A program made the translations under genes and the position numbers. A DNA stretch of 64,000 nt, taken from assembly GCF_000583655.1 (NCBI RefSeq), contig NZ_BAKI01000009.1, positions 1 to 64,000 on the forward strand, in the 5' to 3' direction. Below are positions 1 to 22,688 of the stretch, one piece after another (the first letter of the stretch is position 1; the number at the start of each line of letters is the position of its first letter). The DNA is from Lentilactobacillus farraginis DSM 18382 = JCM 14108. GTDB lineage: Bacteria > Bacillota > Bacilli > Lactobacillales > Lactobacillaceae. A model generated the notes under the pieces. The model made no database searches, was not told where the DNA came from, and was given only the letters and a program-made list of their open reading frames with translations.

Positions 1-642
1 ATGCCCAAAGGAACGATTGTTAATGGGGAAGTCGTTTTGGGGAGTACAAAGAAAGTCTTAATGTCTGGTTGGGTTGGAGTCAGCTATGCTTTAAAGAAGA
101 AATTAAAGCTTAAAGAACCAACCAAAGAGTTTGGTGTTTATCTTTCATATTCGCCGAAGAAGTATACACCGGTTAAGCGGCCTGCCTATACTTTACCGTA
201 TGGCAACAACATCCTTTATTCCGGTGGTGTGAGCACCTTTAAGGATAGAGCCGTTAAATATTATCATGACTCATCGTTTACTAGTAATGCTTTAAGAATT
301 ACGTCAGATGGATATCTGGAGTTTTATAAATATGATCATACCCCTTTGGGCGACGGAGGACTTGAGTGGAATTACGTACAAAAGCCAACAAGTTATGTCA
401 AAATTAATTATGTGCTTAATAGGGGGGCAAAAAAATACTTATATTTTCAACGAAAACTTTCAGGAGTTAAGGCAACTCGTTTAAGTGGCGGTAGATATCG
501 TTATCGTTTAACAATCAACAATCTGCATACCCCATACAAATACACTGGTAAATTATATGATATGGTCGCCAGTTTTTATACGGTTGGAGGTGCTAAGTAT
601 TTCGAAGCCCCTGCACAATCAAATAATTATGGTGCTGATTAA
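1..642 (+). CDS. Secreted protein, family A, 3' part only
   Basis: This is the C-terminal part of a secreted protein of unknown function; the true start lies left of the window. It aligns over its whole length with the intact 279-residue protein at 3138-3977, whose equivalent position is about residue 70, so about 70 residues including the signal peptide are missing here. Shared blocks include KVLMSG, KRPAYTLP, ALRITSDGYLEFYKY and YDMVASFYT. It is rich in Tyr, Lys and Gly and has no membrane segment in the visible part, as expected for an extracellular protein. Its first visible Met is internal and should not be taken as the start. No function is recognised. Confidence 0.75.
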   Translation: MPKGTIVNGEVVLGSTKKVLMSGWVGVSYALKKKLKLKEPTKEFGVYLSYSPKKYTPVKRPAYTLPYGNNILYSGGVSTFKDRAVKYYHDSSFTSNALRITSDGYLEFYKYDHTPLGDGGLEWNYVQKPTSYVKINYVLNRGAKKYLYFQRKLSGVKATRLSGGRYRYRLTINNLHTPYKYTGKLYDMVASFYTVGGAKYFEAPAQSNNYGAD

Positions 643-692
643 ACCCTAATAGTTGTCTGCTTTTTGTTTATGAAAAAATCCCATAATCGCTA

Positions 693-896
693 ATGCTAGT
701 TAGTATCAATTCCGGACTATTAGTGGTGATCAGTGCCAAAAACACTTCCCAAATCTGTTCAGCTTGTGGAAATCATGATGGGTCTAAGCCCTTAACAATT
801 CGAGAATGGACGTGTCATAAGTGCCAAACCCATCATAATCGGGATATTAATGCGGCAGTTAATATCCTTAAGCGCGGATTAAAAGCTACTGGTTAG
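693..896 (+). pseudogene. tnpB: TnpB (IS200/IS605 OrfB) C-terminal remnant
   Basis: The reading frame encodes only the last part of a TnpB RNA-guided nuclease. Visible are the zinc-ribbon pair CSACG...CHKC and the segment [12 protein letters not shown], whose Asp is the third RuvC catalytic residue in this family. The roughly 300 upstream residues (N-terminal domain, RuvC I and II) are absent, since family A coding sequence ends only about 50 bases before. It is therefore a decayed insertion-sequence fragment and cannot be active. The ATG at the left edge of the frame is incidental. Confidence 0.85.
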
Positions 897-1015
897 GAAC
901 TAGCCATGGTAAAAGAGTGACGTTCTGTAAGTTAGGGTTTCGGCATACCGATGTAACAGCCTAAATACCACTACGTGTTTCCAGAAGCGCGATCATTTAT
1001 GGCCGAGTAGTTTAC
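897..1015 (+). mobile_element. Right end of the TnpB element, possible omega-RNA remnant
   Basis: The 120 bases directly after the TnpB fragment carry no gene and look like the conserved 3' flank of an IS200/IS605 element. In intact elements this segment holds the right-end hairpin and the omega RNA that guides TnpB. A structured-looking stretch around 970-1012 (CCAGAAGCGCGATCATTT...) would be the scaffold end. The exact element boundary cannot be fixed from this copy alone. Confidence 0.45.
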
Positions 1016-1055
1016 ACAATATAAATAATAAGATTATTAAAAGGAGAACCATTGG

Positions 1056-1871
1056 ATGAACAAAAGAATCGTACAATTCTTATCTATTGGCTTATTAACG
1101 TTGGGAATCAGCACGTTCCAGCCGATAATTTCTCATGCTTGGACAGCTATAAATAAGTATACTTGGACTTCTGGAAAGGCTGATGCTGCAATTTATTATA
1201 CTAACACAAATAAGAATGCATATATTTGGAACTCCCGCTTCAACAAAAAACTGCATAATCTAAAAAATTATCCATATACTACTTGGTATGTCAGTCGTTC
1301 ATTTGTCCATAATAATAAAGTCTACTACTCAATTAGTAATGGCAATAAAGTTAGAGGAGTTGTTTGGCACGGTTATGTAACGCCAGCTGTTGTTAAAAAT
1401 CTTAATAGTTTTAATAGCAATAGTGATTATCTTAGCTACTTAAATACTGACAAATCTCAAAAGCTTTCGCGGGCCTTGTTAAAATTAATTCCTAACGCAA
1501 ATGTGAGTCTTAATTTATCTAAGCAGGCTGCCATGAACAAAATTACAGATTATCAAAATGTAATTAATTTGGGGACTGTGAGTGGTACTGTGACTGAGGG
1601 CGCAATCACTCACAAAACAATTATTCATGATTTCTTGATGGCTTCCAATACAACTAATACTGCTAAAGCAAAAACTACTGGGAAAATGCTGGCGGCAAAG
1701 GGCTACACAAGTGATAAATTAGCTTCACTGATGAACCAAGGCTATCAAGTTGGTATTTACGTCAATGACGGTGCTGCAACTTCAGTTGGCAAATCTGGAT
1801 ATCCCAGCACTATTAGTTTTAAATCGTCAGTTCAAAATAACATGGCATTTGTAGTTGCAAAGCCAAAATAG
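1056..1871 (+). CDS. Secreted protein, family B (copy 1)
   Basis: A 271-residue protein with a Sec signal peptide (residues 1 to about 28, hydrophobic core FLSIGLLTLGIS, likely cut after SHA). The start is fixed by an AAGGAG site 9 bases upstream. The mature part has blocks shared with the proteins at 2121-2966 and 4258-5079: AYIWN, a KLHNLKNYP segment, YYSISNG, VVWHGYVTP and SQKLSRALLKLIPNA. These define a three-copy secreted family. No catalytic motif, LPXTG anchor or membrane segment is seen in the mature protein, so it is probably released or held non-covalently at the cell wall. Function unknown. Confidence 0.85.
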   Translation: MNKRIVQFLSIGLLTLGISTFQPIISHAWTAINKYTWTSGKADAAIYYTNTNKNAYIWNSRFNKKLHNLKNYPYTTWYVSRSFVHNNKVYYSISNGNKVRGVVWHGYVTPAVVKNLNSFNSNSDYLSYLNTDKSQKLSRALLKLIPNANVSLNLSKQAAMNKITDYQNVINLGTVSGTVTEGAITHKTIIHDFLMASNTTNTAKAKTTGKMLAAKGYTSDKLASLMNQGYQVGIYVNDGAATSVGKSGYPSTISFKSSVQNNMAFVVAKPK

Positions 1872-2120
1872 CTACTACAAAAGTAGGTAAATTAAGGTTA
1901 AACCCGAATTTACCTGCTTTTATGTTAAATCTTTGCTCTATCAACCCGAATTATTTGGCAAATTATCGACAGACTTTTTGCAATTTTAGCGGACCATTAA
2001 CCTTGATATTAAAGCTATAAAATAATCAATAATTTTTGAATTTTACAAACCATAATTTTGCTACAATAGATCTTGGAACTGGGTATAGGAAATGCATTAT
2101 TTTTAGAAAGGAAATCTTAT

Positions 2121-2966
2121 ATGAAAAAACTTAAATTAATACTAATTCTGCTTACAACAATCGGCAGTTTTGCCTTTCTCGCAGTCGGTAACGTTAAAGC
2201 TACTTCAATCCCATCTAATTATTCATTCGACTATCAAAAAGCTGGGGCAGTACCTTATAAAGCCAAATCCGCCTCACAGTCGGCCTACTTATGGAACTAT
2301 CGTCACACTAAACGGCTTCACAATATTAAAAATTATCCCAATTCAAATTGGTATGTTTTTTACGCAAAAGTCAAAAAATATAATAACAAGCGGGTAGTTT
2401 ACTATTATGTTGGTGCCAGTGCTAATTTCAAAATTAAAGGTTGGATTTGGAGTGGCTATCTTACCCGTTTACTAGCTAAGTCACCTGCAGATTTTAAAAC
2501 AGAATCAACATTTATCAACTATGTTAAAACGGATCGATCACAAAGATTAGCCAGAGCAATTCTAAAATTATTCCCTAATACACAACTTAAACTTGATTTG
2601 TCCAAAGCCGCAGTCACAAGTGCAAATTGGAAACCCACTTTAGATCCAAATTATATCAACTATATCAACGTGAATGATTTAAAACCTACCGGATCAACCC
2701 AAGTCGGCAGCGACATTATGTGGTATTTAAGTAAAACTGCCGGAAAACCTATCACCCAAAGAGTTAACTATGTGAAGCGTATTTTAAATGAGAATGGCTA
2801 CACAGACGAAAAGCGGAAGAGTATGGATAATTATTATATCGGAATTGCTTCTTTTGACGGCGCTCAGGATAGTCCCCAATCGTACTTCACCACACCTTAT
2901 CCATCCACTTGGTTAGATGACAGTCAAAATAATAGTACCTTGATATACTTGGCCACTGCTAAATAG
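2121..2966 (+). CDS. Secreted protein, family B (copy 2)
   Basis: A 281-residue secreted paralogue of the neighbour at 1056-1871. I place the start at the ATG at 2121, 8-10 bases after GAAAGGAA and directly followed by a positively charged signal peptide (MKKLKLILILLTTIG, cleavage probably after VKA). An upstream in-frame ATG at 2073 would add a non-hydrophobic extension and lacks a ribosome site. Conserved blocks are AYLWNYRHTKRLHNIKNYP, a GWIWSGYLT segment and SQRLARAILKLFPNT. Function unknown; each copy has its own ribosome site and long spacer, so the copies need not be one operon. Confidence 0.85.
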   Translation: MKKLKLILILLTTIGSFAFLAVGNVKATSIPSNYSFDYQKAGAVPYKAKSASQSAYLWNYRHTKRLHNIKNYPNSNWYVFYAKVKKYNNKRVVYYYVGASANFKIKGWIWSGYLTRLLAKSPADFKTESTFINYVKTDRSQRLARAILKLFPNTQLKLDLSKAAVTSANWKPTLDPNYINYINVNDLKPTGSTQVGSDIMWYLSKTAGKPITQRVNYVKRILNENGYTDEKRKSMDNYYIGIASFDGAQDSPQSYFTTPYPSTWLDDSQNNSTLIYLATAK

Positions 2967-3137
2967 ATATGTATATCTCAAAGAAAATGATTTACAAATT
3001 TCCAAAGTACTATCGTGTCTTTATTAATTATCATATTGAAGTTAAATTATCCTTTAGAGCTTTAACGAAACTGGTATGCAGGCTTAAACATTAAACTTTA
3101 AAAATGCAAAGAGTATCGAGAAAGGAAGAAAATTGTT

Positions 3138-3977
3138 TTGAAAAGGACAGCATGTTTAATTACGGTATTTAGTTTTGTCTTATTTATGGCCTTAACTTTT
3201 TCATCGAATAAGTTAGCTATGGCTAGAGAAATAGGGCTTCATAAAGTCAGCAGTAGTTATATAAACAAGATTGGGGAACGCAATCAGTATTATCGTTTAA
3301 ATCAAAATACCAGGGTCAAATATGCAGGTAAGAAAGTTACTTTGCCTAAAGGGACGATTGTTAGCGGTACAATTGCTGAGAGCAGTACAGGTATAGGCAA
3401 AACTGGTAAAGTTTTAATGTCTGGATTGGTTGATATCAGCTATGCATTAAAAAAAAGAATAGGTGTTAAGGAGCCGACAAAGACTTTTAATGTTTACCTT
3501 CTATATTCGCCAAGTAGGTATACTCGGGTAAAGCGGCCAGCTTATACTTTACCCTTTGGCCGTAATGTGCTTTATTCTGGGGGCATAAGCGCTTTTAAAG
3601 AGCGAGCAGTCAAATATTATTACAATTTGTCGTTTACCAGCAATGCCTTGAGAATCACGTCAGATGGCTATTTGGAGTTTTATAAATATAACAAGAAGCC
3701 CTTGGGTGGTGGCGCACTTGAATGGAATTATACGCAAAAACCATCAAGCTACGCTAAAATTAGTCATACGCTTAATAAAGGATCAAAAAAGTATTTATAT
3801 TTTCAAAAAAAGATTTCAGGTATTAAAGCAACTCGTCTAAACAATGGTAAATATCATTATCGCTTATCAATTAATAATCAGCACACGCCATACCAATATA
3901 TCGGGAAATCGTACGATATGGTAGCCAGTTTCTACACCATAGGTGGCACTAATTATTTTGAGGCACCAGCAAGGTAA
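3138..3977 (+). CDS. Secreted protein, family A (complete copy)
   Basis: A 279-residue secreted protein starting at TTG 3138, behind GAAAGGAAGAA. The signal peptide spans about residues 1-30 (core LITVFSFVLFMALTF, cleavage after AMA). The remaining residues match the truncated protein at 1-642 throughout, with blocks LPKGTIV, KVLMSGLV, RPAYTLPFG, SNALRITSDGYLEFYKY and YDMVASFYT. Tyr-, Lys- and Ser-rich, no anchor motif. It sits between two family B copies, so families A and B alternate along the region. No known domain is recognised; a surface or adhesion role is only a guess. Confidence 0.85.
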   Translation: MKRTACLITVFSFVLFMALTFSSNKLAMAREIGLHKVSSSYINKIGERNQYYRLNQNTRVKYAGKKVTLPKGTIVSGTIAESSTGIGKTGKVLMSGLVDISYALKKRIGVKEPTKTFNVYLLYSPSRYTRVKRPAYTLPFGRNVLYSGGISAFKERAVKYYYNLSFTSNALRITSDGYLEFYKYNKKPLGGGALEWNYTQKPSSYAKISHTLNKGSKKYLYFQKKISGIKATRLNNGKYHYRLSINNQHTPYQYIGKSYDMVASFYTIGGTNYFEAPAR

Positions 3978-4014
3978 GCAATTCGGGTGATTAAATAATG
4001 GGGTTAGTATAAAA

Positions 4015-4130
4015 CTTGAGACAACTTTTGAGAGCGTGTAGAATTATTTCCTATATAAGAAAGGGTTGTCTCATAATGTCAAAACGTTATCTTACTGAAT
4101 TTAAACAAAATATTTTTTTGGTTAGCGATT
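4015..4130 (+). mobile_element. IS3-type left-end remnant with start of orfA
   Basis: The stretch begins with TGAGACAAC (4017-4025), which recurs inverted as GTTGTCTCA at 4066-4074, and is followed by an ATG at 4076 encoding MSKRYLTEFKQN, the usual beginning of an IS3-family OrfA transposase. After about 13 codons the similarity stops and the frame runs into unrelated residues, ending at 4225. Only the left terminus and the first codons of orfA remain. Element family is inferred from the N-terminal motif and terminal layout. Confidence 0.5.
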
Positions 4131-4257
4131 TAACCCTTTTAGCAAGTGACCACGCTGACGCAAAGAATGCCACCGGCAATTATTCAAGAATGCCAGTAAA
4201 GCGTTCGATACAATATCTAAATTGAGGCGAATGTAACTTTGGGGAGGAAAAATAATA

Positions 4258-5079
4258 ATGTCTAACAAATTAATTAAGTTTGTCGTCAGTTGCATCCTAA
4301 CAATTGGCATTGGGATCACCATTCAAGCAAACACAGTTCACGCCAATGTTTTATTTGGTGACTGGACTAATTTTCGTGATTCATGGATGGACTACGGTAT
4401 CAATCAAAAAACGGTTAAAGCTCACAATGCCTATATTTGGAATTTAAGCCATACCAAACGGATTCATAATTTAAATAACTATAAAAATACGACTTGGTAT
4501 ACGATGATGGCCTTTACCCGAACCAAAAGTAACAAAGGACCCATTTATTATAAAATTTCTAACGGCACTAATATCACCGGGGTCGTTTACAACAAGTACC
4601 TCACCAAATATTACGCTGAAGAGCCCAAAACTTTCCAAACAGATGATCAATACCTGCACTATCTGAAAACAGCCCCCTCACAAAAGTTAGCGCGCGGTGT
4701 GATGCGTTTGTTTCCCAATAGTCACGTTAGTCTAAAGCTTTCACAGATTGCTTCAGATCAGTATGACTCGGGAAACGAAACCTTAGTAAACGCCGACTAT
4801 ACCGATGTTCAAACCACTCTTTATCGAAACGCTTTTAGTGTTTTAGAAGCTTGGCAAACCAAGAAGACGGCTACTCAGCGAATTGCAATTTTTGAAAAAT
4901 ATTTAAATTCAATTGGTTATGACCAGGCTAAACGGGATTCGATGAGTGATTATCAACTAGGACTCTTTATTCGTGACGGCGTTGGTATCGGTCAGCCGTC
5001 AACTCAACTCCCAATTGAAAAAACAACCGATGACGCTGGTGCTTTGAGCTATCAAGTCCTGTTAGCTAAAGAAAAATAA
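4258..5079 (+). CDS. Secreted protein, family B (copy 3)
   Basis: A 273-residue secreted protein, start ATG 4258 behind GGGGAGGAAA. Signal peptide about residues 1-29 (core FVVSCILTIGIGITI, cleavage after VHA). It repeats the family B pattern: AYIWNLSHTKRIHNLNNY, GVVYNKYLTKYY and SQKLARGVMRLFPNS, then a more variable C-terminal half (IRDGVGIGQP region). The IS3 remnant lies immediately upstream, so its present promoter may differ from that of the other copies. Function unknown. Confidence 0.85.
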   Translation: MSNKLIKFVVSCILTIGIGITIQANTVHANVLFGDWTNFRDSWMDYGINQKTVKAHNAYIWNLSHTKRIHNLNNYKNTTWYTMMAFTRTKSNKGPIYYKISNGTNITGVVYNKYLTKYYAEEPKTFQTDDQYLHYLKTAPSQKLARGVMRLFPNSHVSLKLSQIASDQYDSGNETLVNADYTDVQTTLYRNAFSVLEAWQTKKTATQRIAIFEKYLNSIGYDQAKRDSMSDYQLGLFIRDGVGIGQPSTQLPIEKTTDDAGALSYQVLLAKEK

Positions 5080-13630: not shown

Positions 13631-14472
13631 CTATTCGAATTCTTCGTAGACGTTTGGATCCTGACCGTCAATTCGACCGTCTTGTTTGTTGAGACCGTTA
13701 ATTTCATGAATTTCATCGGTTGTTAATTCAAAATCAAAAACGTCTAGATTAGCTCGTTGATGGTTTAAGTTGGTTGACTTTGGAATTGGAACAATGCCAC
13801 GTTGAATATGCCATCGTAAAATAATCTGACCGACATTTTTATGATATTTTTCGGCCAATTTCTGAATGATTGGCTCTTTAAGCGCAGCGCTGCCCCGACC
13901 CAGGGGACTCCATGCCTCGGTTACAATGCCGCGTTTGCGGTCCTCTTCAAGCATGCGTTCCTGAACCCAGTAGGGTGAACTTCGATTTGATTGACCGCTG
14001 GGGTAACCCCGGTTTCTTTAATAACGCGATCCAAATGCTCGGGTTCAAAATTGGAAACACCGATTGAGCGGATTAAGCCGCGCTTTTTAGCATCAATCAT
14101 GGCTTGAAAGGCTTCGACGTAATGATCACGTTTCGGCAATGGCCAATGAATGACGTAAAGGTCAAGGTAGTCGACACCTAAACGGTAAATCGACTCTTGG
14201 ATAGCTTTAGTTGCTTCATCATATTGATGATATTTGCCGGGAAGTTTGGAAGTCACGATAAATTGCGAACGGGGGATTCCCGATTTTCGAATGGCTTCGC
14301 CGACAACGCCTTCGTTATCGTAGTTAGTAGCGGTATCCAAAGCCCGGTAACCGTCTTTAATAGCTGCCAGGATTTGTTGGACGCCTTCACCACCCCGGAT
14401 TTGATAAGTTCCTAATCCAAGGGCGGGTAATTTGTAGCCATCGTTTAACGTTACGTCTGGAATCTTAATCAT
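13631..14472 (-). pseudogene. Aldo/keto reductase, frameshifted
   Basis: An NADPH-dependent aldo/keto reductase of the 2,5-diketo-gluconate reductase type. The first part has GLGTYQIRGGEG, DTATNYDNE (catalytic Asp and Tyr), TSKLPGKYHQY (Lys) and VIHWPLP (His); the second has SPLGRG and the NADP-binding IPKSTNLNHQRANLDVFDF. They are in different frames. One base is missing near 13973-13975, where HPYWVQERMLEEDRKRG would be read; adding it restores 280 residues, the normal size. Start ATG 14472 has AGGAGG. It follows the small gene at 14487-14795 by 14 bases, probably one operon. The break may be a sequencing indel. Confidence 0.85.
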
Positions 14473-14486
14473 AAAGTAAATGCCTC

Positions 14487-14795
14487 CTAATTGTTTTGGT
14501 GCGGATCATTTGATTTATCCGGTTTGTCTTTTACTTGATTATTCTTAGGTGGGGTAGCTGTTTTTCTGACGGTCAGGTACCAGCCAACCTGCATCGATTG
14601 ATTGGGATTAATATACTCGGCGCTTAAATGGTAATATTTGGCATATGGGCTTTGATCTTCAATCAGGTGTTTAACGGTTAATGCGTCTGATCGACTGTCA
14701 AAACGCAGTTCGCTGTTGGTGCTGTAATCACTGTGCTTGCTGGGATCGCTATATGCTTTGTTAAAAAAGTCCAGGAACTGTTCGGATTTATTCAC
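14487..14795 (-). CDS. Hypothetical protein, 102 residues
   Basis: A small soluble protein with an acidic/aromatic body (EQFLDFFNKAYSDPSKHSDY, YAKYYHLSAEYINPNQSMQV) and a Lys/Asn/Pro-rich tail (NNQVKDKPDKSNDPHQNN) that is probably disordered. Start GTG 14795, about 12 bases after AGGAGGGA. It is the first gene of a two-gene unit with the aldo/keto reductase. No family is recognised. Confidence 0.65.
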   Translation of the reverse strand: MNKSEQFLDFFNKAYSDPSKHSDYSTNSELRFDSRSDALTVKHLIEDQSPYAKYYHLSAEYINPNQSMQVGWYLTVRKTATPPKNNQVKDKPDKSNDPHQNN

Positions 14796-15008
14796 GATTG
14801 ATCACGTCCCTCCTCTATACCTACCATTGTACTCAACAATTCAATTGAATGCGATGGATAGGCCGGGATTCTTTAATTTGCATTCTTTTTTGGGTGAAAT
14901 TCCTTTTAAAAAGTCTTTTCCTTGACTAAAATTAAATTGTTATCGCTTTTAATTAAGTTTAAAATTTAAGTATGCTCATTAACTTACTTTTATGATAGGG
15001 GGCGGGTG

Positions 15009-15977
15009 ATGATGGAACGACATAGAAAGGGCCTGTTGCTGGTTAATTTGGGGTCACCGGCTTCGCCATTAAACAAAGATGTCAAAGCGTATCTACAGGA
15101 GTTTCTGAGTGACCAGCACGTCGTTGAACTGCCAAAATGGTTCTGGCAGCCACTACTTCGGGGAATTATTTTACCAGCCCGGACTTGGCGGTCAGCTACC
15201 TTTTATCAGCATATGTGGCGGCCGGATGGATCACCGCTGGTTATTTACACAAAGCTGATGTGTGAAAAGGTTCAAAAACGATTGGCGAATTGGGATGTCC
15301 GCTACGCAATGACTTATGGTCAACCGGATATAAGCGAACAATTACACAGGATGAAAGCTGCGGGCGATCAGTCAATTATTGTTTTACCGTTATTTCCTCA
15401 ATATACCAAGAGTACCCATGGGGGGATTATTCAACAGGTTCAAGACTCGGGTGTTAAGACAACGGTGATTCACCATTTTTACCAATATCCACAATATCAG
15501 AAAATGTTGGCCCAACAGGTGGATCGTTGTTACCGACAAAAAGATTATGACGCGGTGATTTTCAGTTATCACGGCATTCCAACTGCCATGGTCAAACACG
15601 GGGACCCTTATTTAAAAGAGTGCCATGAAACTACTGCCGGCGTCATTAAGTATTTGCAGTTGCCGCATGAAAAGGTAAAAATGGCTTTTCAATCCAAGTT
15701 CGGTCCAATGCCCTGGCTGAAACCGTATCTGAAAAATACATTGATGCAATTGGCGGCAATGGGAAAACGAAACGTTTTGATTGTGACGCCTTCGTTTGTC
15801 GAAGATTGTTTGGAAACGATCGAAGAAAATGACGTTCAAAACTATCAAACATTTCGAGCTAGCGGTGGCCGAATTTTTGATTCCGTACCGCCAATGAACG
15901 CGAGTGACCGATTTTGTGATTTTCTGGCGACTATCAGTGTTGACCAGTTAAAAGAAGGGAAGCGGTTTGATGAATGA
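15009..15977 (+). CDS. hemH: Ferrochelatase (coproporphyrin or protoporphyrin type)
   Basis: Inserts Fe2+ into a porphyrin to make (copro)haem, in the cytosol. The 322-residue protein has LLLVNLGSP at the N-terminus, LPLFPQYTKST, the catalytic His in SYHGIP (His188) and the catalytic Glu in VEDCLETIEE (Glu269). Their spacing of 81 residues matches that of the Bacillus enzyme (183/264). Start is ATG 15009 or 15012, both just after AGGGGG. No other haem biosynthesis gene is in the window, so the cell may use imported porphyrin. Its end overlaps mntH by 8 bases, so the two are translated from one message. Confidence 0.92.
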   Translation: MMERHRKGLLLVNLGSPASPLNKDVKAYLQEFLSDQHVVELPKWFWQPLLRGIILPARTWRSATFYQHMWRPDGSPLVIYTKLMCEKVQKRLANWDVRYAMTYGQPDISEQLHRMKAAGDQSIIVLPLFPQYTKSTHGGIIQQVQDSGVKTTVIHHFYQYPQYQKMLAQQVDRCYRQKDYDAVIFSYHGIPTAMVKHGDPYLKECHETTAGVIKYLQLPHEKVKMAFQSKFGPMPWLKPYLKNTLMQLAAMGKRNVLIVTPSFVEDCLETIEENDVQNYQTFRASGGRIFDSVPPMNASDRFCDFLATISVDQLKEGKRFDE

Positions 15978-17292
15978 ACCGGGTAAGAAAAGCCTTGATG
16001 AAATCAATCAAAGCGTTGAAGTTCCCAGCGTTTATGAAACCTCTTTCTTGCAAAAGTTTTTAGCCTATAGTGGTCCCGGAGCCCTGGTTGCGGTTGGTTA
16101 TATGGATCCGGGTAACTGGCTGACGTCGTTATCCGGTGGCGGCCAGTACCGTTATAAACTGCTATCGGTATTATTGTTATCAATTTTAGTCGCGGTGTTT
16201 ATGCAGACACTGGCAATTAAGCTGGGAGTTGTGACTAGACAAGATTTAGCCCAGGCAATTGCGGTAAAGGTGCCGAAAATAGTTCGTTATAGTTTGTGGC
16301 TGATTAACGAAGTTGCGATGATGGCCACAGATATGACAGGGGTTGTCGGAACAGCGATTGCCTTGAAACTGTTATTTGGACTGCCATTGATTTATGGTAT
16401 TTTACTGACAATCTTGGATGTCCTAATGGTCTTGCTGTTTTTGCGATTTGGCATTCGGCGGATTGAGTTTATTGTATTGGCGGCGATTATGACAGTTGGG
16501 GTTATTTTTGGGATTGAAGTTTTTCGGGCACACCCGGTATTTGCCAGTATTTTAAATGGCCTTATCCCAAATTCACAACTTTTAATGAATCATCGCGAGC
16601 TGGTCTTAAGCCTTGGAATTGTTGGTGCGACAATTATGCCCCATAACGTTTATCTGCATTCGTCGTTGGCGCAAAGCCGCCGTTACGATTATCATAATCC
16701 CAAACAGGTTAACGAAGCGCTAAGATTTGCCAAATGGGATTCCAACGTTCATTTGGGAGCTGCTTTTTTAATTAATGCGTTGCTGCTGATTCTGGGCGGG
16801 TCGCTGTTTTTTAATAAGGGTAATCAATTAACCGCCTTTCGAGATGTCTATGAAGGCCTTAAGAATTCGGCGATTGTCGGGACGTTGGCCAGTCCGCTGA
16901 TGAGTACCCTGTTTGCGTTTGCATTACTTATTACAGGGTTGATTTCATCGATTACCAGTACCTTGGCGGGCCAAATTGTGATGGAAGGTTATTTAAATAT
17001 TCGGCTGCCACTTTGGGAACGTCGACTGTTAACCCGGTTTGTAACACTGATTCCGATTTTAATAATCGGATTTATCGTTGGGTTTAATGAGCAAACGTTT
17101 GAAGCAATGATTGTGTTTGCGCAAATTGCTTTATCAATTGCACTGCCGTTTACGCTGTATCCAATGGTTGCTTTGACCAGCAGTCGAAAATTAATGGGCC
17201 GCCATGTTAATTCAACCGGGACGATGATCTTGGGATATGGTTTAACGACTATCATTACTATTTTGAACGTTGTGTTCATGATTAATATTTAA
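15970..17292 (+). CDS. mntH: Nramp family Mn2+/Fe2+ transporter MntH
   Basis: A proton-coupled importer of divalent Mn and Fe, 440 residues with about 11 helices. The metal-binding motif DPGNW is in helix 1 (after GYMDPG) and the second signature MPHNVYLHS in helix 6; both are intact. The start is ATG 15970, behind GAAGGGAAG, within the hemH end (8-base overlap). Co-translation with ferrochelatase suggests shared use of iron. The next gene, a flavin reductase, follows 37 bases on without a terminator. Confidence 0.95.
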   Translation: MNEPGKKSLDEINQSVEVPSVYETSFLQKFLAYSGPGALVAVGYMDPGNWLTSLSGGGQYRYKLLSVLLLSILVAVFMQTLAIKLGVVTRQDLAQAIAVKVPKIVRYSLWLINEVAMMATDMTGVVGTAIALKLLFGLPLIYGILLTILDVLMVLLFLRFGIRRIEFIVLAAIMTVGVIFGIEVFRAHPVFASILNGLIPNSQLLMNHRELVLSLGIVGATIMPHNVYLHSSLAQSRRYDYHNPKQVNEALRFAKWDSNVHLGAAFLINALLLILGGSLFFNKGNQLTAFRDVYEGLKNSAIVGTLASPLMSTLFAFALLITGLISSITSTLAGQIVMEGYLNIRLPLWERRLLTRFVTLIPILIIGFIVGFNEQTFEAMIVFAQIALSIALPFTLYPMVALTSSRKLMGRHVNSTGTMILGYGLTTIITILNVVFMINI

Positions 17293-17329
17293 TGAAGTAA
17301 AAATTTTGATGTAATGGGGGAAACTGTTT

Positions 17330-18091
17330 TTGAAAATCTTGGGTATTTTAGGTGCCCACCGTCGAGACGGAATTACTGCAAAAATGCTGGCAACAGTTTT
17401 GGCTGGAGTTGAGGCGCCTAATCAAACAGAATTGATTTATTTGGAAGACTATTCATTTAAACCTGATCAAATCGATCAAAAAGATCCGGTCTTGGACGAG
17501 TTGGAACAAAAGCTGCTGAAAAGTGATGTTTGGGTATTGGCAGCCCCAACTTATTGGGGTGGCTTGGCCGGTAAAATGAAGGATTTTTTTGACTGCATGC
17601 GTGAACGCCTGGTTCGAATTGATCACTTGGGTGGCACACACCCTGACCGGTTCAAGGATAAGCATTATTTAAGCATAACGGATTGTTACACCGGTACGTT
17701 TGAAAATTGGGTAACCGGGGTTACGGATCAGAGCTTTCGTGCAATTGACAAAGTGATGTCGGCAGCCGGCGTTATTAAAGTACACGAATTAGTACTGACA
17801 AATACTTATGGCATGACAGAACTGCCGGCAGCTAAAAAACAGCTTTGTCTTAAATGGGGCAAGCGCTTAAATATAGTTAAGAAACGAGATGATAGTACCG
17901 TGAAAAGATATATTGAATTATTTTTTATGATCGCACTAATGGCATTGCTTACGATGGGGATTCAATTCGGCTTTCATTTGGTTCCCCGGGGTGGATTTTG
18001 GCTGAGTTACGGCTCTTTTGTCTTAATTTTTTATGTTTTGTTGGCATCAATTCTGCACTTTTTCACGGTGGTTAAACATCGACGTCGATAG
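17330..18091 (+). CDS. NAD(P)H-dependent FMN reductase with C-terminal membrane helices
   Basis: Residues 1 to about 185 are a flavodoxin-like fold: GILGAHRRDGITAKML (phosphate loop), APTYWGGLAGKMKDFFDC (FMN contact, as in WrbA/ArsH-type reductases) and LSITDCYTG. Residues about 195-253 add two hydrophobic helices (FFMIALMALLTMGIQFGF; FVLIFYVLLASILHFF) and a basic tail, so the enzyme is probably anchored with its active site in the cytoplasm. Start TTG 17330, behind GGGGGAAA. Third gene of the hemH-mntH operon; a role in reducing iron for the transporter or ferrochelatase is an inference. Confidence 0.8.
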   Translation: MKILGILGAHRRDGITAKMLATVLAGVEAPNQTELIYLEDYSFKPDQIDQKDPVLDELEQKLLKSDVWVLAAPTYWGGLAGKMKDFFDCMRERLVRIDHLGGTHPDRFKDKHYLSITDCYTGTFENWVTGVTDQSFRAIDKVMSAAGVIKVHELVLTNTYGMTELPAAKKQLCLKWGKRLNIVKKRDDSTVKRYIELFFMIALMALLTMGIQFGFHLVPRGGFWLSYGSFVLIFYVLLASILHFFTVVKHRRR

Positions 18092-18248: not shown

Positions 18249-19178
18249 TTGAAAAATGTTTATTTTGATCATGATGGTAACGTGGATGACCTGGTGTCGT
18301 TACTGTTACTGCTTCAAATGCCCGATGTACGCTTGACGGGTGTCGGCGTTATTGATGCGGATGGCTATATTGAACCGGCTGTCGATGCTTCCCGAAAAAT
18401 AATTGCCAAGTTCGGCCACGGTAATCCGGTTCGGGTAGCCGCGTCAAATTCACGAGCTGTTCATCAGTTTCCAAAGGAATGGCGGTTGAGTTCGTTTTCG
18501 TTTGATGCGTTTCCAATTCTAAATGAACATCAACCTGAGTTGGCACCGATTGCCAAACAGCCGGCCCACTTGGACATGGTTGATAAAATTAATCGGGAAA
18601 CCGGGAAAACAACGTTGGTGATGACCGGGCCGTTAACAGATTTGGCTCGGGCCTTGGCGGTTGACCCCGACATTACGGACAAGATTGATCAGCTCTATTG
18701 GATGGGCGGCACAATGCGAACCCGGGGGAATGTTTTGGAGCCCAAACACGATGGCAGCGCTGAATGGAACGCCTACTGGGACCCATTCGCTGTTAAGACC
18801 GTCTGGGATTCCGATATTAAAATTCAAATGGTTGGCTTGGAGAGTACCAATCAGGTGCCGTTAAATGCTGATATCCAACAGCACTGGGCCGACCTGCGTC
18901 GTTACCCGATGATGGATTTGATTGGCCAGGGTTATGCATTGGTCTCTTCGTATGAAGCCAACTCTACTTATTATCTGTGGGATGTTTTGACGACTGTTGC
19001 CAGTCAATATCCGGAAGTGGTTACGACTAAGGACACCAAGGGCGATGTTGTGGTTAATGGTCCCAGTGCCGGCAAAACTTATGAGACGGCAACCGGCCGG
19101 CCGATTGAGTTGGTTACAGCTGTAAAGGCGCCAAAGTTCTTTGATAAACTTGATGCCTTATTAACACAGGAAGTGTGA
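18249..19178 (+). CDS. Inosine-uridine preferring nucleoside hydrolase
   Basis: Hydrolyses ribonucleosides to base and ribose in the cytosol. The family's Ca2+-binding N-terminal motif is present as DHDGNVDDLVSLLLL (residues 7-21; usually DxDxxxDD), followed by VAASNSRAVHQFPKEW, TLVMTGPLTDLARAL and MGGTMRTRGNVLEP; a C-terminal DVLTTVASQYP carries the last metal-site Asp. 309 residues is typical. Start TTG 18249, behind GAGGAGGGG. It overlaps or abuts the next flavoenzyme gene, so they probably form an operon. Confidence 0.92.
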   Translation: MKNVYFDHDGNVDDLVSLLLLLQMPDVRLTGVGVIDADGYIEPAVDASRKIIAKFGHGNPVRVAASNSRAVHQFPKEWRLSSFSFDAFPILNEHQPELAPIAKQPAHLDMVDKINRETGKTTLVMTGPLTDLARALAVDPDITDKIDQLYWMGGTMRTRGNVLEPKHDGSAEWNAYWDPFAVKTVWDSDIKIQMVGLESTNQVPLNADIQQHWADLRRYPMMDLIGQGYALVSSYEANSTYYLWDVLTTVASQYPEVVTTKDTKGDVVVNGPSAGKTYETATGRPIELVTAVKAPKFFDKLDALLTQEV

Positions 19179-19183
19179 TTGCG

Positions 19184-20379
19184 ATGAGTTATTTGCAGGT
19201 TTCAAAGTCATTGACACTGCCATGTGGTGTTACCGTTAAAAATAGGTTTGTTAAAACGGCGTTAAGTGAAACGATGGCAACTGACCAACACCGTTCAGAC
19301 GCGCGATATGAAAAATTATACCGTCAGTGGGCAATGGGTGGCGCCGGAATCGTTATTACGGGAAATGTTATGGTTGATCGAGCGGCCATCGCCGAGCCGG
19401 GCAACGTTGTGGTTGATGATGAACGTGAATTGCCGGAGCTTCAGCGATGGGCGCAAAATGGTACTCTAAATCAAACACAGTTATGGCTGCAATTGAATCA
19501 TCCCGGCCGACAATCACCCAAACAGTTTTCGGCTCGGCCGGTTGGCCCCAGCGCTGTGCCGATTACCGGTGTCAATCACCGGGCGTTTAATCCGCCACGG
19601 GCATTAACGATTGACGAGATAAAAGAATTAGTCACGAAGTTTGTTAGAAGTGCCGTTATTGCACAAAAAGCAGGCTTTACCGGTGTTCAGCTGCATGGGG
19701 CATTTGGTTATTTGATTAATCAATTTTTATCGAAAAAACCAACCGGCGGACTGATGAATATGGTGGTTCTCTTGAGAATCGGATGCGGTTTTTGATTGAA
19801 GTTTATCAAGGGATTCGCGAAGCGTGTGGTAAAGCATTTCCGATTAGTTTAAAACTGAGCTTGACTGATATTGATCTGGCGGGATTCACCGAAAAGACAT
19901 TAACGAGGGTTGCCAAACGGATGGCCGATCTGGGGATTGATATGATTGAAATTGCTGGAGATGATTACGAAAATTCGCAAATCGGTTTTTCCGGTCATGC
20001 CCACCTGATTAATCGGCTGGTTGACGTTCCGATTGCTCTGAGCGGTGGTTTTCGGCACATTTCTGCAATGGAAGAAGCTTTGGGTAGGCAGGATGCAGAC
20101 CTGATCGGAATTTGCACGCCGATGGCTGTCATGCCGGATATGCCAAACCGTATTTTAAATTCGACTTACCGTCCCGTAAAGCTGCCATTGTCAACGGGGA
20201 GTTCTAAGTTGGACGATAAGTTAAAGACTCTGATTATGACCAGTTATTGTGAGGAGCAGGTTCACCGGCTCGCTGAAGGAAAACCGCCGAAAATCTATCG
20301 CAATGCTTGGCGGTCGGTATTGGCCGAAGCCCGCCTGCATGGTCTCAATGGGTTGAAACCACGGCGGGCACAATCGTAA
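19184..20379 (+). pseudogene. NADH:flavin oxidoreductase (Old Yellow Enzyme family), frameshifted
   Basis: An FMN-dependent ene-reductase-type TIM barrel. The first frame contains LPCGVTVKNRFVKTALSE, WLQLNHPGRQSPK (active-site His and neighbours) and GVQLHGAFGYLINQFLSK; the second SLKLSLTDIDLAGF and LSGGFR (phosphate binding). One A is missing from the six-A run at 19733-19738: with seven, the conserved KTNRRTDEYGGSLENRMRF is read and the protein is 398 residues, normal for the family. Start ATG 19184, behind GGAAGTG, just after the nucleoside hydrolase stop. The break may be a homopolymer error. Confidence 0.85.
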
Positions 20380-22194: not shown

Positions 22195-22688
22195 CTAACG
22201 ATTGACGTTATTAATCATCATAGGGCCCTTTCCCAAATATGCGTTTATCATCCAAATATTTTTATCAATAGCTTCTTTAAAACCATTTAACATATCCTGG
22301 GTTGGAAAATCCTTTTCATCGTCCGTAATTTCAATTCCTTTTTGGTATTGATTACGCAGGTATTTGAATTGATCGACCAGCCGCTGCATAAAATCACGCA
22401 TTGTGAGTTGGTCCCAAGTGATTTTTTCGTCCGGTAGGCCGGTATGATCGATAAACTCATGGGTGGTGGCGTAAGGCGAACCGTTAATGGCAATTAATCG
22501 TTCGGCAACGTTGTCCAGCTGATCGGCTAATTGGTCATGATAATCATCCATTAGCGGGTGCAGTCTAAAGAAGTTTTCGCCGCGCATATACCAATGGGTT
22601 TGTTGGATATTTGTTTGGAGTTGACTGAGTCTGCGACCAACTGATTGAGCTGTTCACGGGTCTTTGGAAAATCGTACTTATCTGCCAT
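22195..22688 (-). pseudogene. dps: Dps family DNA-protecting ferritin-like protein, frameshifted
   Basis: Forms a 12-subunit shell that oxidises Fe2+ and protects DNA in starvation and oxidative stress. From ATG 22688 (behind AGGAGGGA) the first frame reads MADKYDFPKTREQLNQLVAD and runs out of frame near 22596-22601. The second frame then gives the ferroxidase region MRGENFFRLHPLMDDYHDQL and the typical NVAERLIAINGSPYATTHEF. One added base near GGGTTT joins them through THWYMRG, giving 164 residues, the usual Dps length. The break may be an assembly indel. Confidence 0.85.

Follow-up and report, generated by a model that had tools for sequence, protein, structure and literature searches.

A ferrochelatase gene paired with its own Nramp paralogue in Lentilactobacillus farraginis: a candidate operon for porphyrin salvage

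The hemH locus and the pairing of ferrochelatase with MntH-h

The first 64,000 nucleotides of contig NZ_BAKI01000009.1 of Lentilactobacillus farraginis DSM 18382 = JCM 14108 (the window) contain three uninterrupted genes in the same direction on the forward strand: hemH (15009-15977), encoding a ferrochelatase of the protoporphyrin (E. coli) type (322 amino acids; TIGR00109, 255.8 bits, cut-off 124.6; PF00762, 318.4 bits, cut-off 27); a mntH paralogue tied to hemH and here named MntH-h (15970-17292), of the Nramp family (440 amino acids; NF001923 MntH, 464.7 bits, cut-off 430; PF01566, 319.2 bits, cut-off 29.8); and fmnR (17330-18091, TTG start), encoding a protein of the FMN reductase family with a flavodoxin fold and a C-terminal two-helix membrane hairpin (253 amino acids; PF03358 FMN_red, 54.8 bits, cut-off 24; PF02525, 32.8 bits, cut-off 27). 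The first two genes overlap by 8 bases (ATGAATGA, 15970-15977, forward strand), which suggests translational coupling, and a gap of 37 bases separates mntH from fmnR. The expected place of the operon promoter is the intergenic stretch 14796-15008, between a divergent open reading frame (14487-14795, reverse strand) and hemH. The closest named HemH proteins are those of L. hilgardii (83% identity) and L. parafarraginis (80% identity). An earlier note on this DNA had reported the overlapping ferrochelatase and importer with a reductase behind them, two membrane helices in that reductase, and no haem pathway gene nearby. The coordinates and profile scores, the hairpin read in the sequence (helices 188-214 and 220-251 in the AlphaFold model) and Pfam scans of 47 window proteins, among which ferrochelatase is the sole haem-pathway family, agree with it on all three points (69 window open reading frames of at least 100 amino acids were listed).

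Ferrochelatase genes are patchily distributed in the Lactobacillaceae (57 of the 201 genomes searched), and mntH-h is found in 19 of these 201 genomes, with identities of 56-100% followed by a drop to 51% or less. All 19 copies adjoin hemH, judged by the places listed, and mntH-h is absent from all 144 genomes without ferrochelatase. Among 398 sampled Bacilli genomes, whose Lactobacillaceae share is only partly listed, a search at E 1e-140 returned only the window's own copy (0 of 397 others). The same adjacency, which exceeds chance, holds in 15 of 15 named loci, which are close relatives retrieved by HemH peptide patterns. The overlap between hemH and mntH measures 1 to 23 bases in all 18 loci measured (the window and 17 others), when the mntH start nearest the hemH stop is taken. 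The 15 named and 18 linked loci are not independent sets, since some appear to be the same strains (e.g. L006/G239, L014/G218).

In a HemH tree of 63 rows (a frameshifted HemH shorter than 250 amino acids, L106, was excluded), a single 24-row clade with support 100/100 holds all 19 rows followed by mntH, and the linkage label changes 3 times, versus 16.5 times in shuffles. Surroundings of about 4 kb on each side were taken for 60 ferrochelatase places, some ended by contig edges; the other lactobacillar HemH type has no mntH directly behind it, and at one locus (L054) a different MntH lies about 3 kb upstream. Among 29 order-level ferrochelatase loci (up to 1.5 kb on each side; 26 of the loci are from other families), mntH was found only at L037, which belongs to the Lactobacillaceae. 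A plasmid search with the operon DNA gave 7 records with short matches, six of them annotated as Nramp. That ferrochelatase and MntH-h form one unit is supported by their being found only together, overlapping and co-inherited. A described hemH-mntH operon was not found in the titles and abstract openings of the papers listed for ferrochelatase, hemH and mntH. In L. pentosus KCA1 the locus tags of an MntH (KCA1_1121) and a ferrochelatase (KCA1_1122) follow one another, which suggests that the two are paired there as well; the passages of PMC3602190 that name these proteins give them separately and do not connect them.

The pair also differs from other mntH genes in its upstream DNA. An inverted repeat, TTAGGN4CCTAA, occurs at 9 or 10 of its 10 letters before 18 of 29 other mntH genes (three of the matches at the edge of the scanned stretch, and the scan starting at the first Met of the frame, which is misplaced in L114, L115, L117 and L142), is perfect before another mntH of the same genome (contig C99), and reaches 9 of 10 in none of 1000 random window pieces. 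Its place and symmetry suggest an MntR-like manganese-regulator site. No box of at least 9 of 10 letters was found upstream of hemH in the window, in any of the 18 linked loci (only 139 bases could be scanned at L084) or in any of 41 other ferrochelatase loci, and the best score within 14796-15008 is 6 of 10. Just before mntH, 17 of the 18 linked loci score 6 or 7 (the window 6); control of hemH-mntH-h by this box was rejected, the eighteenth locus being considered below. Fur-like boxes upstream of hemH in the 18 loci are no better than in shuffles, and PerR-like boxes with up to 3 mismatches occur in 3 of 18, versus about 1 of 18 (~7%) in shuffles, a weak signal. Promoter-like matches (12, versus 9.2 in shuffles, standard deviation 3.2) and terminator-like matches (7, versus 4.2, standard deviation 2.3) do not justify naming either element. 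The genes hemH and mntH-h probably share one transcript.

Porphyrin substrate and supply

HemH shares 36% identity with its E. coli counterpart, 23% with the B. subtilis enzyme, and about 20% with a second ferrochelatase, which contig C62 of this genome encodes. In the tree, HemH falls with the E. coli protein and away from the B. subtilis enzyme (split 100/100, with a long E. coli branch), and it keeps the catalytic His and Glu, as expected of a protoporphyrin ferrochelatase (PpfC). Like the E. coli and human enzymes, it also has Arg at the position of human R115 and an E. coli-like proximal Leu; unlike them, it is found in a monoderm genome with no HemE match. The coproporphyrin ferrochelatase LmCpfC is described as holding its substrate via Arg29, Arg45, Tyr46, Ser53 and Tyr124 (PMC7340540), and the proximal residue of such enzymes (CpfC) as Tyr in Firmicutes or Phe in actinobacteria (PMC7340540, PMC10427985). 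In these five columns HemH of the window has Leu, Phe, Tyr, Ser and Ile, against Arg, Arg, Tyr, Ser and Tyr in the C62 protein; the proximal residue is Leu in the former and Tyr in the latter. HemH therefore lacks equivalents of Arg30, Arg46 and Tyr125 of the B. subtilis enzyme (numbers that assume a one-residue shift, as for Tyr12/13), all of which are present in the C62 ferrochelatase. On these residues and its place in the tree, HemH of the window is of the protoporphyrin type, and coproporphyrin, which the earlier note had implied as its substrate, was rejected. The best reading is that it inserts Fe(II) into protoporphyrin IX; its catalytic residues are ordinary, which leaves insertion of manganese as its proper reaction a remote prospect. 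At residue 129 (15393-15395), the position of human Tyr191, 23 of 24 members of its clade have Phe, and all 32 HemH proteins of the other lactobacillar type have Tyr.

The C62 gene belongs to a set (L020, 2006-5107) of chdC, a major facilitator superfamily (MFS) transporter gene with a frame broken in the assembly, and cpfC, corresponding to the Firmicutes coproporphyrin ferrochelatase/ChdC route and located outside the window. The C62 cpfC is 99.7-100% identical to copies on the four plasmids read (L. plantarum, Loigolactobacillus, Limosilactobacillus), and 11 plasmid records match it at 99% or more. In three of these four plasmids, among them L165 with IS3 genes next to the remnant, chdC is shortened; L167 and C62 have the whole gene. 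Sets of the chdC-MFS-cpfC type are also present at L112, L113, L165, L166 and L167, the one at L113 being a more distant hemQ-MFS-hemH set on the Lactococcus plasmid pAH1-1. None of five other ferrochelatase-bearing Lentilactobacillus has a second ferrochelatase, and C62 may represent plasmid DNA or contamination (the assembly is rated 94% complete and 2.86% contaminated). The set may form a mobile kit for turning coproporphyrin into haem and include a candidate transporter of coproporphyrin. It fits coproporphyrin better than does HemH of the window, which is without its porphyrin-holding residues, and the two porphyrins would then have separate ferrochelatases.

No match to URO-D (HemE) was found in the genome of the window, and the cell seems unable to make porphyrin. 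The genome encodes cytochrome bd subunit I (CydA, contig C120), followed by genes read by eye as cydB, cydC and cydD; behind these cyd genes lie two FMN-reductase-like genes, also identified by eye (L021, 8638-10200). Because a HemE match is lacking and cytochrome bd subunit I is present, finishing a porphyrin from outside, as the earlier note had supposed, is a natural role for the ferrochelatase, with protoporphyrin in place of the coproporphyrin it had named. All 19 MntH-h genomes have cydA, versus 114 of the 182 others, as do 47 of 57 ferrochelatase genomes versus 86 of 144 without ferrochelatase. In the Lentilactobacillus sample, the six genomes with the operon (the present one included) have cydA, and the three without the operon are also without cydA.

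MntH-h as a separate Nramp group, and the attached reductase

In the MntH tree, a branch with support 100/99 separates the linked copies from the universal MntH (~530 amino acids) and from shorter types (~460-470 amino acids). The comparison set consisted of 30 loci, read out of 73 MntH places in 27 genomes; one of them duplicates a linked copy (L132 = L093), leaving 29 paralogues, and a broken linked MntH (L091) was excluded from this tree and from the overlap count. The genome of the window also encodes the universal type (contig C99) and a distant homologue (contig C77).

Between the 18 linked rows and the 29 paralogues, 29 columns are clade-specific, and from these the glutamate of transmembrane helix 3 (TM3; E134 of DraNramp) was then chosen for its known role. 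Its site is occupied by Gly in 17 linked rows and Ser in one, by Gly in all 15 named loci (Gly124 in the window), and by Glu in all 29 paralogues and in ScaDMT. Counted from the Asp of DPGN, the sites of the TM3 glutamate and the TM3 aspartate in MntH-h are 78 and 75 residues away, as are E134 and D131 from D56 in DraNramp. The canonical metal-site motifs, DPGN (TM1) and A..MPH (TM6), are kept in 18 of 18 linked rows and 15 of 15 named loci, and the motif SGQ(N/S)STITG of the 29 paralogues has become TG(L/M)ISSI(T/A)S in 17 of the 18 linked rows. The MntH-h with Ser at the TM3 site (L090, genome G219) has a motif, SGQNATITG, close to that of the paralogues and is the first to branch; on these features it is a possible evolutionary intermediate.

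MntH-h resembles DraNramp, ScaDMT and EcoDMT in family, in its DPGN and MPH motifs, and in the TM3 aspartate (D131) and lower TM3 glutamate (E124), both in 18 of 18 rows by alignment, but differs from them in Gly or Ser at E134, in the altered SGQ motif, and in always adjoining hemH in the genomes searched. The best solved chains for MntH-h are 5m94/5m95 and 5m87/5m8a, which presumably are those named ScaDMT and EcoDMT; entries 5m8a and 5m8k have Ala and Gln, respectively, at the site aligned with the TM3 glutamate and are evidently engineered mutants. According to the relevant portions of PMC6398981, E134 is 98% conserved in Nramps, and its mutation abolishes proton uniport and severely reduces Mn-linked proton flux, with metal transport still significant. 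Transport by MntH-h would accordingly be predicted, from this one residue, to be weakly or not at all proton-coupled. A Clade B Nramp of Bacteroides fragilis (BfraNramp), as presented in part of a preprint (PMC12873925), likewise keeps its metal motifs and has lost coupling, which in MntH-h is only predicted to be lost. BfraNramp, however, keeps the TM3 glutamate and is without most other proton-path residues, whereas MntH-h is without the TM3 glutamate and still has counterparts of at least D56, H232, D131 and E124.

The MntH1 of L. paracasei, which by deletion is reported to deplete manganese, seems to be of the universal type: the reverse primer given in PMC7082583, when translated, codes for a C-terminus (KADVDEQ) that looks like the acidic tail of the universal type and unlike that of the hemH-linked type. 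The other mntH genes of L. paracasei are stated in the same source to be more than 200-fold less expressed in milk. The label of Mn/Fe importer, given to MntH-h in the earlier note, is too loose for a special paralogue without the mntH box and without the TM3 glutamate.

FmnR is conserved over its full length, hairpin included, and scores above the Pfam cut-offs of the FMN_red and flavodoxin-like families. Its AlphaFold model is poor (mean pLDDT 43, with ten-residue blocks of the two helices mostly at 67-78), and no solved relative was found by sequence at E 0.001. The earlier note had treated the three genes as a unit to be looked for across species, and the third member fails this: fmnR lies behind the pair in 10 of 10 named Lentilactobacillus loci, but in none of five Levilactobacillus and Lacticaseibacillus loci and in only 6 of the 19 paired genomes. 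The trio was rejected as a conserved unit outside Lentilactobacillus. Homologues of fmnR are found in 77 of the 201 genomes (fragments only in G123): in six, all Lentilactobacillus and the present genome included, they are behind mntH-h, in 28 hemH is located elsewhere, and 43 are without ferrochelatase. Neighbours vary at 14 other fmnR loci, with thiamine-type genes, by eye, in one genus. The gene is commoner in genomes with ferrochelatase (34 of 57) than in those without (43 of 144), but its link with cydA, present in 73 of the 77 (the four exceptions are of one genus), is stronger. Because FmnR is unlinked outside Lentilactobacillus and tracks cydA, it is more likely a respiratory flavin or quinone reductase than an iron reductase for HemH, ferric reduction being the second possibility; it is read as having joined the operon in one lineage, Lentilactobacillus.

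Some genes near the operon are split over two frames, as with an aldo/keto reductase (13631-14472) and an Oxidored_FMN protein (19175-20379), and so, on contig C120, is a gene that looks NDH-2-like by eye (L021, 66-1747); the cause may be either errors of sequencing or genuine decay. A ferritin-like protein (22195-22587, reverse strand), for which the Dps type is a guess, is encoded 4 kb from the operon and matches its profile only from position 25 onward. At 1-5079, five consecutive open reading frames of 213-297 amino acids without a Pfam match fall into two groups of paralogues, with 70% and about 32-37% identity.

Interpretation of the hemH-mntH-h pair

Comparison of the genomes establishes the exclusive linkage, the separate paralogue group without box or TM3 glutamate, the protoporphyrin-type HemH, the lack of a HemE match and the presence of cydA; we infer iron as the metal of MntH-h and cytochrome bd as the destination of the haem. 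On balance, hemH-mntH-h is probably a two-gene salvage operon that turns outside protoporphyrin into haem with the help of a dedicated Fe(II) importer. The cell would take up protoporphyrin IX from outside, and HemH would complete it with Fe(II), the haem then serving mainly cytochrome bd. MntH-h would be a private Nramp importer supplying that Fe(II), produced jointly with HemH through the gene overlap and outside the apparent control of the other mntH genes. In Lentilactobacillus, the likeliest part for FmnR would be to pass electrons into the quinone or flavin pool that serves this respiratory chain. A more specific version, in which MntH-h is a proton-uncoupled entry for Fe(II) driven by the membrane potential and by the use of iron by HemH, possibly with hand-over to HemH at the membrane, is offered tentatively and may well not hold. 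Of the earlier interpretation, the unit of ferrochelatase and importer and the use of outside porphyrin are supported by comparison, and coproporphyrin and the conserved trio are not; a stronger point than it had made is the existence of an Nramp group that is bound to ferrochelatase and lacks the glutamate of the proton pathway.

Several observations count against this account of a salvage operon. The metal ligands of MntH-h are identical to those of manganese importers, so that these residues do not separate iron from manganese as its cargo. A new His at residue 261 of the window protein, shared by all 18 linked rows where the 29 paralogues all have Gln, could make up for the missing TM3 glutamate, and an E-to-Q mutant of EcoDMT at the same site is reported to have kept wild-type proton transport (PMC6398981, in part), which weakens the simple prediction of lost coupling. 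The MntH tree has midpoint rooting only and carries a long-branch warning, and the co-occurrence tests for MntH-h, ferrochelatase, FmnR and cydA ignore kinship. HemH can manage without MntH-h, since 5 of the 24 rows of the linked HemH type have no linked mntH. Nor is MntH-h the sole candidate route for Fe(II), as a FeoB_C match is present in the genome of the window and in 6 of the other 18 paired genomes; the remaining 12 gave no match. URO-D was matched at 23 to 109 bits in 7 of the 24 genomes searched, among them the paired genomes G216, G239, G218 and G185 (109, 56, 43 and 33 bits), and a lack of porphyrin synthesis is therefore claimed only for the present genome. At one linked locus of the 18 (L093, G211) a 9 of 10 box does lie just before mntH, inside the 3' end of hemH. 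This box, together with the PerR-like boxes (a weak signal) and the matches to URO-D elsewhere among the paired genomes, slightly lowers the standing of the salvage operon and slightly raises that of a pairing under metal stress.

In that alternative, which is unlikely though the best placed of the rivals, MntH-h imports Mn(II) and the haem finished by HemH goes to oxidative defence, both genes being wanted under peroxide. The shared metal ligands suit it, as do reports that peroxide-oxidised OxyR induces E. coli mntH (PMC4361602, in part) and that L. plantarum mntH2, whatever its type, is up with peroxide (PMC2174512, in part). It is opposed by the separate universal mntH with its box in the same genome and by Fur-like boxes as in shuffles, and the PerR-like signal, 3 of 18 versus about 1 of 18, is weak rather than nil.

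It is improbable that an uncoupled MntH-h instead lets Mn(II) leave or equilibrate, sparing ferrochelatase in a manganese-rich cytosol: loss of the TM3 glutamate may permit downhill transport, but the membrane potential favours the entry of cations, and 38 of the 57 ferrochelatase genomes are without MntH-h. The idea draws on E. coli, in which excess manganese with low iron is reported to stall ferrochelatase and to raise protoporphyrin about 80-fold (PMC4361602, in part). That the neighbourhood has no function, an old gene order having been kept by chance and descent, is very improbable; the trees permit a single origin of the linkage with few losses, but the overlap persists at every measured locus in several genera, mntH-h is never away from hemH in the 201 genomes, and its dN to L. 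hilgardii is 0.07, with dS saturated (mntH and fmnR above 2, hemH not computable) so that this constraint is only rough. Least credible is the full model of the earlier note, a single path in which FmnR keeps iron ferrous for HemH acting on coproporphyrin, since the gene order and spacing in Lentilactobacillus and the somewhat commoner fmnR in ferrochelatase genomes are outweighed by a HemH without coproporphyrin-binding residues and by an FmnR that is unlinked beyond Lentilactobacillus and accompanied by cydA in 73 of 77 genomes but by hemH in only 34.

The comparison changes which porphyrin is to be expected at this locus and draws attention to a possibly mobile coproporphyrin set that lies apart from it. 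MntH-h, without the residue implicated by mutagenesis in proton movement, in cells whose other MntH proteins keep it, offers a natural test of the purpose of proton coupling in Nramp transporters. An importer found only with ferrochelatase is also a strong candidate for a dedicated supply, bearing on how ferrochelatase obtains Fe(II) in manganese-rich cells. On the more tentative, proton-uncoupled version of the salvage reading, these lactobacilli would run iron along a path of its own from MntH-h to HemH when completing scavenged porphyrin.

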